A stretch of 64,000 nucleotides of DNA from Gemmatimonadaceae bacterium (lineage in GTDB: Bacteria; Gemmatimonadota; Gemmatimonadetes; Gemmatimonadales; Gemmatimonadaceae): positions 1-64,000 of the forward strand of contig DASYSS010000048.1 in assembly GCA_036003045.1 (NCBI GenBank). Reading direction: 5' to 3'. Numbering within the stretch: position 1 is the first letter of the stretch; every line of letters begins with the position of its first letter. Below the pieces are notes generated by a model, which saw only the letters and a program-made list of their open reading frames with translations, had not been told where the DNA came from and did not search any database. The position numbers and the translations under genes were made by a program. This document shows positions 18,544 to 62,864 of the stretch, in pieces.

Positions 18544-20868
18544 ATGCGCATTCGCAGGTTGGGTGTGATCGGGGCGGGGACCATGGGGGGCGGCATCGCG
18601 GCGCTCGCGGCGTCGGCCGGCATCCCCGTGCTGCTGCTCGATGTGCCAGCCCCGCTGGGGGGGGCAGACCGGAACGCCGTCGCGCGCGGCGGCGTCGAGC
18701 GCGCGAAAAAAGCGAAGCCCGCGGCGTTCATGGCCGCCGGCCGCGCCGCACTGATCGAAATTGGAAACACCGACGACGACTTGGAGCGCCTCGCGGAGTG
18801 CGACCTGGTCGTCGAAGCGATTGTAGAACAGGTCGCGCCCAAGCGCGACCTGTATGCGCGCCTCGAGAAGGTGCTGCCGTCACACACGATCGTCGCGTCG
18901 AACACGTCCAGCATCCCGATGAGCATGCTCGTCGACAAACTGGGCGTGGATCTGCGGTCGCGTTTCGTCGGCATGCACTTCTTCAATCCGCCGCGATACC
19001 TCCATCTGTTGGAGATCATTCCCGGTCCGCAGACGTCGAGCGAAACGCTCGACACGGTGCGCCGTTTCAGCGATCGCGTCCTGGGGAAGGGAATCGTGCT
19101 CGCCTGCGACGTCCCCGGATTCGTCGCCAACCGGCTCGGCGTGTTCGGGATGGTGCTCGCCATCCGCCAGATGGAAAAGCACGACCTCAGCATCGATGAA
19201 ACCGACGCCCTTACGGGCGTCTTAACCGGCCGCTCGAAGTCGGCGACGTTCCGTACGGCCGATCTGTCCGGCATCGACGTGATCGCGCACGTGACCAAGG
19301 AATTGAGCGAGGCGACGGGCGAGGATTTCACTCTCTCGCCGTGGGTCGTCGATCTGGTGAAAGCGGGCCGACTCGGCGAAAAGAGCGGCGCGGGTTTCTA
19401 TCGCCGCGTCGGCAAAGAGATCCAGACGCTCGACTGGAAAACGGGAGAATACGCGCCGCAGTCCAAGCCCGGGTCTCCGGAGTTGGCGACCCTCTCGGCC
19501 ATGCCACTGGCCGACCGATTCACCGTGATCCGCGATTGGAAGGCAGACGACCGATACGGCGCGTTCGTGCAGGAGTACCTGCTGCGCTTTTCCCACTACG
19601 TGCTGACCACCGGTCCGTTGGTCGCGCGCGACATTCCATCGATCGATGACGCGATGGCCTGGGGCTACGCGTGGGACGCGGGTCCCTTCGCGCAGATGGA
19701 CCTGCTGGGCAACGAGTTTCTCGCCCGCGGCTTCTCTCGCCTATCGCTCGGCGAGCCGGACCTGCTGCGCCGCGCGAAGGACGGCTTCTTCAGTGACGAC
19801 GGCACGAAAGTCCTCTCGTTCAAGGGCGGGTACGAGCCGATCGAGCGTCCGGCGGGGGAGATTCGTCTCGCCGACTTCCATCGTCCGTCGAATCGGTCTC
19901 ACCTGCTCGAGGACTCGCGCGATGCGTCGCTGATCGACGTCGGCGGCGGCGTGGCGGTGCTCGAATACCATAGTAAGCTCAACACGCTCGGCGAGGGCGT
20001 GATCGCGATGATCCACCGCGCGCTCGACCGCGTAGAGCGAGACGGGCTCACCGGCCTCGTGATCGGCAACGACGATCCGCGTACGTTCACCGCGGGCGCC
20101 GATCTGGCGTACATGCTGTCGCTCGTCGATGAAAAAGACTGGTCGCGCGCGGCGGAGGCCTGCCGGCACTTTCAGAACACGGCGCTGCGGATTCGACAAT
20201 CGCCGTTTCCCGTCGTCGCGGCACCGTTCGGTCTCGCGCTCGGCGGCGGATGCGAGTTTTCACTCTACGCGGATCGCATTCAAGCGCACGCCGAGCTGTA
20301 CATGGGGCTGGTCGAAGTCGGCGTGGGAATCATTCCCGCCGGCGGCGGTACGACGGAGCTGCTTTTCCGATTCGCGAGCGAGCTCACGCCGTACATCGAG
20401 GCCGATCCGTTCGAGGGAGTGCGGCGCGCGTTCCAAGTGATCGCCATGGCGACGACGAGCACGAGCGCTCTCGACGCGCGAGCAATCGGTTATCTGCGCC
20501 CGACCGATCGCATCACGATGAACCGCGATCGCCTGATCGCCGACGCGGTGGCCCGCGTGACGGATCTGGCACCCGACTACGTGCCCTCCGTGTCCCGTCG
20601 AATCACGGCGATGGGAAAGGACGCGCTGGGCAACCTTCAATACGCCGCGTGGTCGATGAAAGAAGCCGGCCAGATCTCCGACCACGACGTTCGCATCGCG
20701 CACGAGCTGGCGTACGTGCTCACCGGCGGCGACGGTCCTCCGCGCCAGGTGACCGAGCAGGACATTCTCGACCTGGAGCGCGAGGCGTTCCTCAAGCTCC
20801 TGGGTACGAAAGAGACGCAGGAGCGAATCAAGTACATGCTGAGGACGGGGAAGCCGCTCAGGAACTGA
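18544..20868 (+). CDS. 3-hydroxyacyl-CoA dehydrogenase/enoyl-CoA hydratase (FadN-type)
   Basis: A 774-residue bifunctional beta-oxidation enzyme. The dehydrogenase half comes first, with the NAD fold GAGTMGGGIAALAAS at residues 8-22 and the catalytic region FVGMHFFNPP; the hydratase half follows from about residue 470, with FTAGADLAYM and ALGGGCEFSL at the oxyanion hole. Dehydrogenase-then-hydratase is the order of FadN, the reverse of FadB/FadJ. GGGAG lies about 9 nt before the ATG. The 250-bp gap upstream holds no other gene. The thiolase gene follows after an array of inverted octamers, so the two presumably form one fatty-acid degradation operon. Confidence 0.95.
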   Translation: MRIRRLGVIGAGTMGGGIAALAASAGIPVLLLDVPAPLGGADRNAVARGGVERAKKAKPAAFMAAGRAALIEIGNTDDDLERLAECDLVVEAIVEQVAPKRDLYARLEKVLPSHTIVASNTSSIPMSMLVDKLGVDLRSRFVGMHFFNPPRYLHLLEIIPGPQTSSETLDTVRRFSDRVLGKGIVLACDVPGFVANRLGVFGMVLAIRQMEKHDLSIDETDALTGVLTGRSKSATFRTADLSGIDVIAHVTKELSEATGEDFTLSPWVVDLVKAGRLGEKSGAGFYRRVGKEIQTLDWKTGEYAPQSKPGSPELATLSAMPLADRFTVIRDWKADDRYGAFVQEYLLRFSHYVLTTGPLVARDIPSIDDAMAWGYAWDAGPFAQMDLLGNEFLARGFSRLSLGEPDLLRRAKDGFFSDDGTKVLSFKGGYEPIERPAGEIRLADFHRPSNRSHLLEDSRDASLIDVGGGVAVLEYHSKLNTLGEGVIAMIHRALDRVERDGLTGLVIGNDDPRTFTAGADLAYMLSLVDEKDWSRAAEACRHFQNTALRIRQSPFPVVAAPFGLALGGGCEFSLYADRIQAHAELYMGLVEVGVGIIPAGGGTTELLFRFASELTPYIEADPFEGVRRAFQVIAMATTSTSALDARAIGYLRPTDRITMNRDRLIADAVARVTDLAPDYVPSVSRRITAMGKDALGNLQYAAWSMKEAGQISDHDVRIAHELAYVLTGGDGPPRQVTEQDILDLEREAFLKLLGTKETQERIKYMLRTGKPLRN

Positions 20869-20871
20869 ACG

Positions 20872-20972
20872 GGTGGACAGGTGGACAGGTGGACAGGTGG
20901 ACAGGCACTGCGACCGACGCTCTTCGTCTTTGCTCTTCCCGTCCACCCGTCCACCTGTCCACCCGTCCACCG
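20872..20972. repeat. Inverted GTGGACAG octamer array between fadN-type gene and thiolase (site B)
   Basis: Four tandem copies of the octamer GTGGACAG occupy 20873-20904. After a 36-nt gap, four inverted copies, GTCCACC followed by C, T, C and G, occupy 20941-20972. The arms can pair over about 32 bp with a few A:C or G:T mismatches at the eighth base, making a long hairpin with a 36-nt loop. It starts 3 nt after the fadN-type stop codon and ends 22 nt before the thiolase ATG, so it is intercistronic in a likely operon. Confidence 0.9.
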
Positions 20973-20994
20973 CTTCAATCGAGGTACCCAACCA

Positions 20995-22167
20995 ATGAAA
21001 GAAGTCGTAATCGTTTCCGCCGTTCGCAGTCCCGTCGCCCGTGGCAAGAAAGACGGGGCTCTCGCGGACGTTCACGCCGTCGATCTCTCTGCGGCGATGA
21101 TGAAAGCGGCGATCGATCGTGTGGGGATTGATCCCGCGGCGATCGACGACGTGTACTGGGGGTGCGCGATGCCCGAGGCGACGCAGGGGCTCAACGTCGC
21201 GCGGCTCGCGTGGTTGCGCGCGGGACTGCCGGTCAGCGTGCCCGCCGCGACCATCAACCGATTCTGCTCTTCGGGCTTACAAACGGTCGCACTCGCCGCC
21301 CAAGAAATCATGAGCGACATGGCGGACGTCGCGCTCGCGGGCGGTGTGGAGATGATGAGCCAGGTGCCGATGTCGGGCTATCACACGCGGCTCGATCCCG
21401 AGATCACCGAGTCGTACATCGGCATGGGCTACACGGCGGAGCGCGTCGCCGAGCGATGGAAGGTGACGCGCGAGGACCAGGACCGTTGGGCTTTGGGGAG
21501 TCAGCAAAAGGCTGCGCGCGCCTTGAGCAGCGGAGCGTTCGACGGGCAGATCGTGCCCGTCGACGTAGAGCGCGCGACGTGGAATGGCGCCGAGAAAACC
21601 GAGACCACGACGAAGTTCGAGCGCGACGAGCTTCCGCGTCCCGACACGACGATCGAGGGTCTCGCAAAGCTGCGACCGGCGTTCAAGGTCAACGGCACGG
21701 TCACCGCCGGTAACGCGAGCCCCTACTCGGATGGTGCGGCGGCGGTTCTGCTGATGACGGCGGAACGAGCGAACGAGTTGGGACTCAAGCCGCTCGCCCG
21801 CTTCATCAAGTTCGCGGCGGCGGGCGTCGAGCCGGACGTGATGGGGGTCGGCCCGATCAAGGCGGTGCCGAAGGCGCTCAAGCGTGCCGGCATCAAGCTC
21901 GACGACGTGAAGCTGATCGAGTTCAACGAGGCGTTCGCGGCGCAGGTCGTGGCGGTCGTGCGCGAGCTCGGGTTCGACGAGTCGAAGGTGAACGTGAACG
22001 GCGGCGCGATCGCGCTGGGGCATCCGTTGGGCGCGACGGGCGCGAAGCTGACGACGCAGCTCGTCCACGAGCTAGGGAAGCGCGGCGGCGGGACGGGTCT
22101 CGTGACGATGTGCATCGGCGGCGGGATGGGCGCCGCGGGATTGTTCGAGGTCTACGCGGCGGCCTGA
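20995..22167 (+). CDS. fadA: Acetyl-CoA C-acyltransferase (thiolase)
   Basis: A 390-residue degradative thiolase. The nucleophilic Cys lies in [12 protein letters not shown], the active-site motif is in [11 protein letters not shown], the His in [15 protein letters not shown] and the second Cys in [13 protein letters not shown]. It cleaves 3-ketoacyl-CoA to acetyl-CoA and a shortened acyl-CoA, completing the cycle begun by the upstream FadN-type enzyme. The start at 20995 is the first ATG after the octamer array; frames upstream of it translate the array. Distance to the next gene is 65 nt. Confidence 0.96.
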
Positions 22168-60674: not shown

Positions 60675-61007
60675 TCAATCCATTCGAAGCACGAGCGCGA
60701 CGGCCGCGGTGAGGCGCGCCCAATCTTCGGCTTCGGTCGCGAGCTGCTTGCGCCCGACCTTGGTCAGCTCGTAGTACTTCGCCTTGCGGTTGTTGTCCGA
60801 CGCGCCCCACTCGGCGCGGATCCACCCCCGGCGCTCGAGCCGGTGGAGCGCGGGGTAGAGCGACCCCTGCGGGATCTGCAGCGTCGCCCGCGATACATCG
60901 TGGATGCGCTCGGAGATCGCCCAGCCATGCATCGGCTCGAGCGAGAGCGCTTTGAGAATCAGGAGATCGAGTGTCCCCTGCGGTAGGTCGAGTTTGTCGT
61001 CGCCCAT
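60675..61007 (-). CDS. PadR-family transcriptional regulator (acidobacterial PadR type)
   Basis: A 110-residue winged-helix regulator with the signature LDLPQGTLDLLILKALSLEP and LYPALHRLERRGWIRAEWG, the subfamily that accompanies ADOP permeases. AAGGGGAG lies 6 nt upstream of the ATG, and a perfect palindrome begins 17 nt upstream, so autorepression is likely. It is the first gene of the padR-ADOP operon. Confidence 0.95.
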   Translation of the reverse strand: MGDDKLDLPQGTLDLLILKALSLEPMHGWAISERIHDVSRATLQIPQGSLYPALHRLERRGWIRAEWGASDNNRKAKYYELTKVGRKQLATEAEDWARLTAAVALVLRMD

Positions 61008-61023
61008 GGAAGCTCCCCTTGCA

Positions 61024-61057
61024 CTTCTACAAGACGGTACAAGCCGTCTTGTAGAAG
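61024..61057. promoter_or_regulatory. Perfect 14-bp-arm palindrome, candidate PadR operator
   Basis: Arms CTTCTACAAGACGG (61024-61037) and CCGTCTTGTAGAAG (61044-61057) are perfectly inverted around TACAAG (61038-61043). TACAAG occurs at 61028 and 61038, exactly 10 bp apart, and its complement CTTGTA at 61048, another 10 bp on. Three half-sites one helical turn apart lie on one face of the DNA. The site covers the likely promoter of padR, whose start codon is 17 nt away. Confidence 0.75.
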
Positions 61058-61068
61058 CGCAAGGGGGC

Positions 61069-61174
61069 GGTGGACAGGTTGACGGGTGGACCGGTGGACC
61101 GGAACTGTTTGAGGCGTGAGAGTCGGGCGCTCAGACGTCCGATGTCTGATTACTCGCGGTCCACCCGTCCACCC
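61069..61174. repeat. GTGGAC octamer array between padR and amidase (site C)
   Basis: The left arm holds four octamers with phase 8: GTGGACAG, GTTGACGG, GTGGACCG and GTGGACCG (61070-61101). The right arm holds two inverted copies, GTCCACCC twice (61159-61174). The loop is 57 nt. The right arm ends 1 nt before the amidase stop codon (61176-61178). Together with sites at 2591 and 20872 this forms one repeat family, always touching a stop codon. Confidence 0.85.
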
Positions 61175-61175
61175 G

Positions 61176-62864
61176 CTACGGCCGCAGCGTACTCCCCAGA
61201 ACCACCGTCTCCTCAAACGTCGGCCTCCGCCGCGCCGGCGCCGCTTGCTCGAATGCGTACGCCAGCTTGAGCAGCGTGGCCTCGCTCCATGCGCGGCCGA
61301 CGAACGAGATCCCGACCGGAAGTCCCCGCACTTGGCCCATCGGCACAGTGACGTGCGGGTAGCCGGCGACCGCGGCGGGTGCGGTGAACGATCCGCCGCC
61401 GCCGGCGTCTCCGTTCACCAGATCGATGAGCCACGCCGGGCCCTGCGTCGGCGCGACGATCGCGTCGAGTTTGTGCTTGCCAATTGTCGCGTCGATTCCC
61501 TGCGCGCCCATCAAGCGACGGTTGTTCGCCAGATCGTCCAGGTACTTCTTCTCGGTGAGTGGCCCCTTCTTCTCCGCTTGCTCCATGATTTCCTGGCCGA
61601 AGTAGCGCAGCTCGCGCGACGCGTTCTTCGTATTGAACGCCATCACGTCGGCCAGCGATTTGATCCCGACACTCGGCTCGACGCCCGCGAGGTACGCGTT
61701 CAAATCGGCCTTGAACTCGTAGAGCAGCAGCTCGAACTCGGAGTCCTCCGTCTTTCCCGCGGTCTCGATGTCGGCCGGGTCGACGATCGTCGCGCCATGC
61801 TGCCGCATGAGATCGAGTGCCGCCGCGAACACCTTGTCAGTCTCGGGCGAATAGCCGGTGTATCGCTTGCGCGCGACGCCGATCCGCGCTCCGCGCAAGC
61901 CGTCTTTGTCGAGCGATGTTCGGTAGTCCGTCTGTGAACGTCCCCCCCCGATGCTCGCCCGCGTCGCCGAGTCGTGCGGATCGACGCCGGTGAGTGCGCC
62001 GAGCAGAATGGCCGCATCGCGGACGGTGCGCGCCATCGGCCCGGCCGTATCCTGGCTGTGCGCGATCGGGATGATTCCGGCGCGGCTGATGAGCCCGACC
62101 GTCGGCTTGATGCCGACGAGCGCCGACGCCGCGGACGGCGACGTGACCGACCCATCCGTTTCCGTACCGATGGCGACCGCGCAGCAGTTCGCCGCCGTCG
62201 CCGCGCCCGATCCGGAGCTCGAGCCGGATGGCGTTCGATCGAGCACGTACGGATTGCGCGTCTGCCCGCCGCGTCCGCTCCACCCGCTCGACGAGTGCGT
62301 CGAACGGAAGTTCGCCCACTCGCTCAAGTTCGTCTTGCCGATGATCACCGCGCCGGCCGCTTTCAAGCGCTCGGCGACCCACGAATCCTTCGCGGCGATG
62401 TGACCAGCCAACGCGAGAGAGCCGGCGGTCGTATGCATGTGGTCGGCGGTGTCGATGTTGTCCTTGATCAACACCGGAATGCCGTGCAGCGGCCCGCGAG
62501 TCTTGCCGGCTTTACGCTCTTCGTCGCGCAGTCGCGCGATCGCCAGCGCGTCGGGATTGAGCTCGATGACCGAGTTGATGGAGGGGCCGCGCTGATCGAT
62601 GGCGGCGATGCGCTCGAGATACTGTCGTGAGAGCGATTGCGCCGTGTCCTGCCCGGACTGCATGCGTCCCTGCAGCTCTTCGATCGTCAGCTCGTCGAGA
62701 GCGAACGCCGGGACCTGCTGCTTCGCGCCGGATGTCGGCGCGGTGGAGGCACCGCCCGCGGCCGATCCGCCGAGCGTCGACCCGCCCATCACGGCGGCGG
62801 CGAGCGTCGCGCCGACGAACCCGCGACGGGTGATTGTGGTCTTGTCGTCGCGGTCGTCGGTCAC
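61176..62864 (-). CDS. Secreted amidase (amidase-signature, Tat-exported)
   Basis: A 562-residue amidase-signature protein. TRRGFVGATLAAAVMGG at the N-terminus is a twin-arginine signal. The catalytic Lys is in GIPVLIKDNIDT, the cis-Ser in TPSGSSSGSGAATAA, and the nucleophilic Ser in GTETDGSVTSPSAASALVG, the complete Ser-cisSer-Lys triad. It hydrolyses an amide or peptide amide; substrate unknown. It follows the second plug protein gene by 18 nt. Confidence 0.94.
   Translation of the reverse strand: MTDDRDDKTTITRRGFVGATLAAAVMGGSTLGGSAAGGASTAPTSGAKQQVPAFALDELTIEELQGRMQSGQDTAQSLSRQYLERIAAIDQRGPSINSVIELNPDALAIARLRDEERKAGKTRGPLHGIPVLIKDNIDTADHMHTTAGSLALAGHIAAKDSWVAERLKAAGAVIIGKTNLSEWANFRSTHSSSGWSGRGGQTRNPYVLDRTPSGSSSGSGAATAANCCAVAIGTETDGSVTSPSAASALVGIKPTVGLISRAGIIPIAHSQDTAGPMARTVRDAAILLGALTGVDPHDSATRASIGGGRSQTDYRTSLDKDGLRGARIGVARKRYTGYSPETDKVFAAALDLMRQHGATIVDPADIETAGKTEDSEFELLLYEFKADLNAYLAGVEPSVGIKSLADVMAFNTKNASRELRYFGQEIMEQAEKKGPLTEKKYLDDLANNRRLMGAQGIDATIGKHKLDAIVAPTQGPAWLIDLVNGDAGGGGSFTAPAAVAGYPHVTVPMGQVRGLPVGISFVGRAWSEATLLKLAYAFEQAAPARRRPTFEETVVLGSTLRP

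Follow-up and report, generated by a model that had tools for sequence, protein, structure and literature searches.

Introduction

The GGGNATC heptamers of Xanthomonas and Nostoc are G-rich short tandem repeats that are dispersed and mostly intergenic, prefer arrays of four units, and place the sense G-rich strand within 50 bp of stop codons; their function was left open (Rehm et al. 2015, PMC4692102). In Xanthomonas they form 70-75 convergent inverted pairs, and the unit GGGAATC is common to two Xanthomonas species (PMC4692102). The repeats avoid divergent gaps and show no tie to mobile elements, and the 2015 study of these convergent G-rich repeats emphasised quadruplex formation (PMC4692102). 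REP, BIME and REPIN elements are likewise dispersed noncoding palindromes that lie chiefly downstream of co-directional or convergent genes; they are characterized by a fixed palindrome of 20-40 nt, a GTAG/CGTC tag and a RAYT (PMC3733652). TAACTGA heptamers of Beggiatoaceae, Cyanobacteria and Bacteroidetes are high-copy, short intergenic tandem units with tight placement at gene ends, although they lie upstream of start codons, are direct rather than inverted, and consist of one heptamer across phyla (PMC4679880). Bacterial satellites of constant size and variable sequence keep their unit length while the sequence differs by family or species (PMC8161180). The satellite units are 20-21 or 52 nt long, and the available portion of that account mentions neither inverted arms nor placement at stop codons.

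Here we describe an octamer foldback element in a Gemmatimonadaceae genome, for which the GGGNATC type is the closest known case. Both are G-rich short tandem repeats, dispersed and mostly intergenic, with four units preferred, with convergent pairs, with the sense G-rich strand near stop codons (mostly within 15 nt in our genome), with divergent gaps avoided and with no tie to mobile elements. Our family fails on two features of that type, namely the quadruplex-forming tracts and the shared unit. Its unit is an octamer rather than a heptamer and is private to the species, whereas two Xanthomonas species share theirs; the units of congeners differ, and unrelated units occupy orthologous gaps within the genus. 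Unlike REP, BIME and REPIN elements, it has no fixed palindrome, GTAG/CGTC tag or RAYT, each arm consists of tandem octamers that differ in number from copy to copy, and its loops are mostly unrelated.

Results

An octamer foldback fills the space between a FadN-type and a thiolase gene

We analysed a 64-kb stretch of DNA (64,000 nt; hereafter, the window). The first-pass annotation, made from the sequence alone, had described four direct and four inverted octamers in the gap between two beta-oxidation genes. This observation is real: the gap is filled by a foldback at positions 20873-20970, and a second foldback copy spans window positions 61070-61172. The features at the two sites are as follows.

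18544-20868, plus strand: upstream gene, FadN/FadB type 3-hydroxyacyl-CoA dehydrogenase / enoyl-CoA hydratase (Pfam 3HCDH_N, 3HCDH, ECH_1)
20866-20868, plus strand: TGA stop codon of the FadN-type gene; the array starts 4 nt downstream
20866-20977, plus strand: whole extended stem-loop (RNA MFE -75.8 kcal/mol, z -9.35)
20873-20904, plus strand: G-rich arm, four units of GTGGACAG, all perfect
20905-20938, plus strand: loop of 34 nt, unique to this copy
20939-20970, minus strand: C-rich arm, four inverted units, which on the minus strand read as three GTGGACGG and one GTGGACAG
20995-22167, plus strand: downstream gene, FadA type thiolase, starting 24 nt past the C-rich arm
61070-61101, plus strand: left arm of the second copy, GTGGACAG GTTGACGG GTGGACCG GTGGACCG
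61157-61172, minus strand: right arm of the second copy, two units, 3 nt past the stop codon of an amidase gene
61176-61178, minus strand: stop codon of the amidase gene

Read in order along 20939-20970, the units of the C-rich arm are CCGTCCAC, CCGTCCAC, CTGTCCAC and CCGTCCAC. Mismatches between the two arms are confined to the free base of the octamer, base 7 of GTGGACNG; the loop, annotated as 36 nt, measures 34 nt. The inverted repeat extends beyond the arrays, with a 40-nt left half (20866-20905) that is 88% complementary to 20938-20977. The predicted RNA fold of this stem-loop is far more stable than those of its shuffles (-75.8 versus -39.5 kcal/mol). Across the window, GTGGACNG occurs 26 times where 11.1 copies are expected, a number that no shuffle reached.

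Next to the second copy is a separate near-perfect inverted repeat of 23 nt with a 6-nt spacer (CCCCTTGCACTTCTACAAGACGG / CCGTCTTGTAGAAGCGCAAGGGG, window 61015-61066). It adjoins the octamer element and lies directly upstream of a gene for a PadR-family regulator (60675-61007, minus strand), of which it is possibly the operator.

The element is one of a genome-wide family

The annotation had proposed a search of the genome for tandem units, and had set three copies as the number against which to judge it. We found far more. Over the 5.37-Mb genome the tandem dimer GTGGACNGGTGGACNG was matched 339 times, 189 times in forward and 150 times in reverse orientation; a control with the pattern reversed was matched 22 times (11 + 11). 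With a mismatch-tolerant detector, 1.13 Mb of our genome yielded 111 octamer arrays, and a Markov-1 control yielded none; the stretches in this sample, which covers 208 of the 339 dimers, were partly picked for holding arrays, such that the count is not an estimate of density. In a 0.84-Mb subset, a period of 8 was dominant, with 67 tandem arrays, as compared to between 1 and 25 at the other periods from 4 to 13. These results support the reading as a dispersed element made of inverted tandem octamers. As had been suggested, the number of units varies: arrays contain from 2 to 9, with four the commonest size (52/111).

Paired arrays have a uniform polarity. All 34 of the 34 pairs of arrays less than 250 nt apart are convergent, with the G-rich arm leading. 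The foldback copies have stem energies of -46 to -129 kcal/mol, and their loops range from 14 to 163 nt. By BLAST the loops are mostly unrelated. The sequence AACNRC is found 26 times at inner array edges, with 2.4 expected; a core common to the copies thus exists, but it is degenerate and weak. An HMM of the loop core motif (AACNRC, CTCAGA/TCTGAG) recovered few additional copies. We rejected a shared mobile loop as the basis of the family, given the mostly unrelated loops and in spite of the weak inner-edge core.

Degenerate palindromic words, CTCAGA/TCTGAG (e.g. CTGAGAACTCAGGCCTGAGATCTCAG), recur in the loops of L203, L271, L197 and L198. The same set of words occurs in the congener G003 (L360, position 14551), and without arms at L194, position 6025. 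One G003 element has a CTGAGAACTCAGGCCTGAGATCTCAG-like stretch between the arms of another octamer.

Several contigs end in or beside octamer arrays (L339, L341 and L348 of G004), as do two contig starts in our own genome (L275, L277). It is likely that short-read assembly is interrupted by octamer arrays, some of which may be longer than what is visible; the assembly is fragmented, with some contigs ending in arrays, and long arrays may go uncounted.

Each species has its own unit

The GTGGACNGGTGGACNG dimer has no matches in five congeners (G001-G005), and among 395 genomes of the phylum none but our own exceeds three matches. Congeners have private units in its place: GTRTGGGC in G004 (108 matches, 0 in the other five genomes of the genus), GGTGGAAC in G003 (182 matches, 1 elsewhere in the genus) and GGGGCGT in G002 (64 matches, 0 elsewhere in the genus). 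In G004, from which, as from G002, several stretches were picked for holding arrays, all five of five pairs are convergent and 11 of 25 elements lie behind stop codons (2.8 expected, maximum 8). Small samples from eleven other genera of the family mostly show no arrays; the exceptions include an octamer foldback, AGGGCAAG, in G020, and several heptamer or hexamer arrays in G010.

Other repeats were seen along the way. Further G-rich arrays of heptamers and hexamers are present in G001 (L353, L355) and G002 (L284, L367), with the units GGTGGGT, CGGGCGG, telomere-like TTTAGGG, and GTGGGGC, the last repeated up to about 14 times. A second type of dispersed hairpin in congeners, with the word GTCATCCCGAGC or GAGTCGAGGGATC, is found in G004 (L040) and G005 (L298, L300). 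The matches listed from a contig-wide scan across genomes were mostly isolated chance matches, bar some arrays in Bacteroidales. The Bacteroidales records (L082, L091, L092, L098 and L101) hold related octamer arrays of GTGGACGG, GCGGACAG and the like, some of them directly behind the stop of an open reading frame.

Elements lie immediately behind stop codons

Placement behind stop codons is a point beyond the first-pass annotation. Genes were called with a simple, home-made, hexamer-based caller, whose start positions are rough. Of 65 noncoding clusters of elements, 37 have the sense G-rich arm no more than 15 nt behind a stop codon; when elements of the same lengths were placed at random in the same intergenic gaps, the mean was 5.2 and the maximum 11 (400 trials). 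No stop codon was called within 15 nt of the remaining 28, and a further 12 clusters fall within called genes. The two sides of the array differ: a stop codon is found no more than 15 nt away from 38 of 91 outer edges and from 3 of 91 inner edges. In several copies the array abuts the stop codon, reading TAG|GTGGAC. By type of gap, elements are found in 11 of 62 convergent, 27 of 263 co-directional and 9 of 124 divergent gaps.

Sister species carry different units in the same gaps

We compared orthologous gaps across the genus. Downstream of a gene of the pyruvate dehydrogenase E1-beta type (Pfam Transket_pyr, Transketolase_C), hereafter the pdhB gap, four species have a foldback that starts no more than about 4 nt after the stop codon, and each has a different unit: GTGGACNG in our genome, GAGAGTR in G005, GGGTTTA in G002 and GGCGTCGR in G004. 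All three sister elements are full foldbacks. The pdhB gap of G003, at 12 nt, has no element.

The annotation had proposed to align the orthologous fadN gaps. Directly behind the stop codon, G005 carries an array of CCRTGGA-like heptamers, and G003 an array whose heptamers are CTRGYRG-like and come with an incomplete inverted arm. The octamer of our genome is in neither, and the gaps of G001 and G002 have no element. In G004 (L040), an unrelated GTCATCCCGAGC hairpin stands where our genome has the octamer element. Since the same gaps are empty in some congeners (fadN in G001 and G002; pdhB in G003), the element is not essential.

A gap that carries an element in our genome may tend to carry an array in a sister. 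Using only stretches that had not been selected for arrays, and gaps that measure 30 nt or more in our genome, we found that a sister array followed the stop codon in 5 of the 9 pairs whose gap has an element in our genome and in 8 of the 89 pairs whose gap has none (Fisher p 0.002), the positive side of this test resting on only two independent genes. Arrays of different units at the same orthologous gaps in sister species are absent from the first-pass annotation, and we found no description of such unit turnover in the open-licence literature.

Substitutions do not favour pairing

The annotation had suggested that pairing between the arms is conserved. Selection on pairing was not borne out. 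There is no covariation between arms at the free base, which forms Watson-Crick pairs at a frequency of 0.37, as compared to 0.41 in shuffles. The absence of covariation is weak evidence, because any unit pairs with any opposite unit and compensation is perhaps needless. Substitutions, too, show no pair-keeping bias: there are 15 G>A changes in the stop-proximal arm and 6 in the distal arm. Only G>A changes in the distal arm keep G-U pairs in the sense RNA; hence, the observed bias is opposite in sign, and we rejected an RNA-directed substitution bias. Both findings weigh against a simple role in RNA structure.

Discussion

The feature between the FadN-type and thiolase genes very probably belongs to a family of foldback simple-sequence elements that are dispersed in this genome and private to the species. 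Taking the evidence together, the explanation we favour, and consider probable, is a species-private foldback whose units are remade and whose stem is a candidate 3'-end structure.

Much of what we observed would also be expected of neutral or selfish microsatellite foldbacks that are born by slippage and spread without benefit, and that persist chiefly in the stretch from a coding sequence to the following start because selection purges them from genes and promoters. Covariation and pair-keeping substitution bias are both absent, the presence of elements varies among congeners, array and loop lengths are variable, and co-directional and convergent gaps are richer in elements than divergent ones. 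Harder to reconcile with neutrality are the placement within 15 nt of stop codons, about sevenfold above random placement in the same gaps, and the recurrence of the same architecture, made of unrelated units, at the same gaps. We regard a neutral origin as a substantial possibility that falls well short of an even chance, and a barrier role for the hairpin, at the 3' end or between cistrons, as slightly more likely when judged from sequence. Long intrinsic (Rho-independent) terminators would account for strong GC-rich stems directly behind stop codons and for elements being commonest between convergent genes. Only 2 of 68 stem ends, however, have TTTT within 15 nt, and elements lie inside the likely operons fadN-fadA and pdhB-pdhC. 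With so few T-runs the elements are therefore not intrinsic terminators, as the annotation had held for the fadN gap, and we consider an unusual terminator of this kind improbable. The annotation's view that this is no standard element also holds for Rfam, in which no family matches above the gathering score. The only Rfam matches were sub-threshold ones to long-hairpin miRNAs; we rejected identity as a miRNA precursor since these are below threshold and any long hairpin gives such matches.

Formation of a G-quadruplex by the G-rich arm, as proposed for GGGNATC of Xanthomonas and Nostoc, would fit the sense G-rich strand after the stop codon and the preference for exactly four units seen here, as in PMC4692102. 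Of the 111 arrays, however, no more than 16 contain a three-tetrad motif. The fadN-gap copy, all four units of which are GTGGACAG, does not have one, the GAGAGTR unit in the G005 pdhB gap lacks runs of three Gs, and the presence of an inverted arm speaks for a duplex stem; we think a quadruplex very unlikely to be the explanation. Dispersed palindromes at gene 3' ends, as for REPs (PMC3733652), and the degenerate AACNRC core at inner edges could suggest REP/REPIN elements mobilised by a RAYT (Y1 HUH) transposase. However, Y1_Tnp (PF01797) is unmatched in our 98.5% complete genome, while control genomes do match, and on this basis we rejected mobilisation by a RAYT. The arms, moreover, are tandem arrays of varying unit number with mostly unrelated loops, and each congener uses another unit. 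We consider a REP/REPIN identity very unlikely.

How might the favoured foldback arise and act? Arrays would lengthen and shorten by slipped-strand replication, template switching across the inverted repeat would copy one arm to the other and keep one unit in both, and copies would spread within the genome by some route. We offer this origin by slippage and template switching tentatively; it has perhaps one chance in three of being right. Once transcribed, the element would form a long stem directly after the coding sequence. This stem would serve as a 3'-end or intercistronic barrier that protects the transcript of the upstream gene against 3'-5' exonucleases or sets the stability of segments, much as REPs do. 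Such a role in the 3' UTR, proposed from the position and predicted fold of the element, has in our view a little under an even chance. The effects put forward in the annotation, uncoupling of fadA expression from fadN or a part in mRNA processing, are candidates at this site. Because the barrier would be indifferent to the unit word, any word would fit, which would explain how units turn over while architecture and position persist.

A stronger proposal is that an active, sequence-agnostic process in the genus writes, or rewrites, tandem 7-8-mers into both arms of gene-end hairpins, giving each species private units while the architecture and positions stay fixed. Candidates for such writing are a dedicated polymerase, a mechanism that uses a template, and concerted copying from arm to arm. 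We consider this proposal unlikely. More generally, our findings suggest that hairpins at the ends of genes are continually rebuilt by a force that is still poorly understood.

This genus separates the quadruplex reading from the stem reading, since its arrays are placed and paired like the GGGNATC repeats and likewise prefer four units, yet most of them could not form a three-tetrad quadruplex. The private units of congeners at the same gaps amount to a natural experiment, which asks if it is the stem and not its sequence that is kept, and the same set of congeners bears on the birth and homogenisation of arrays.
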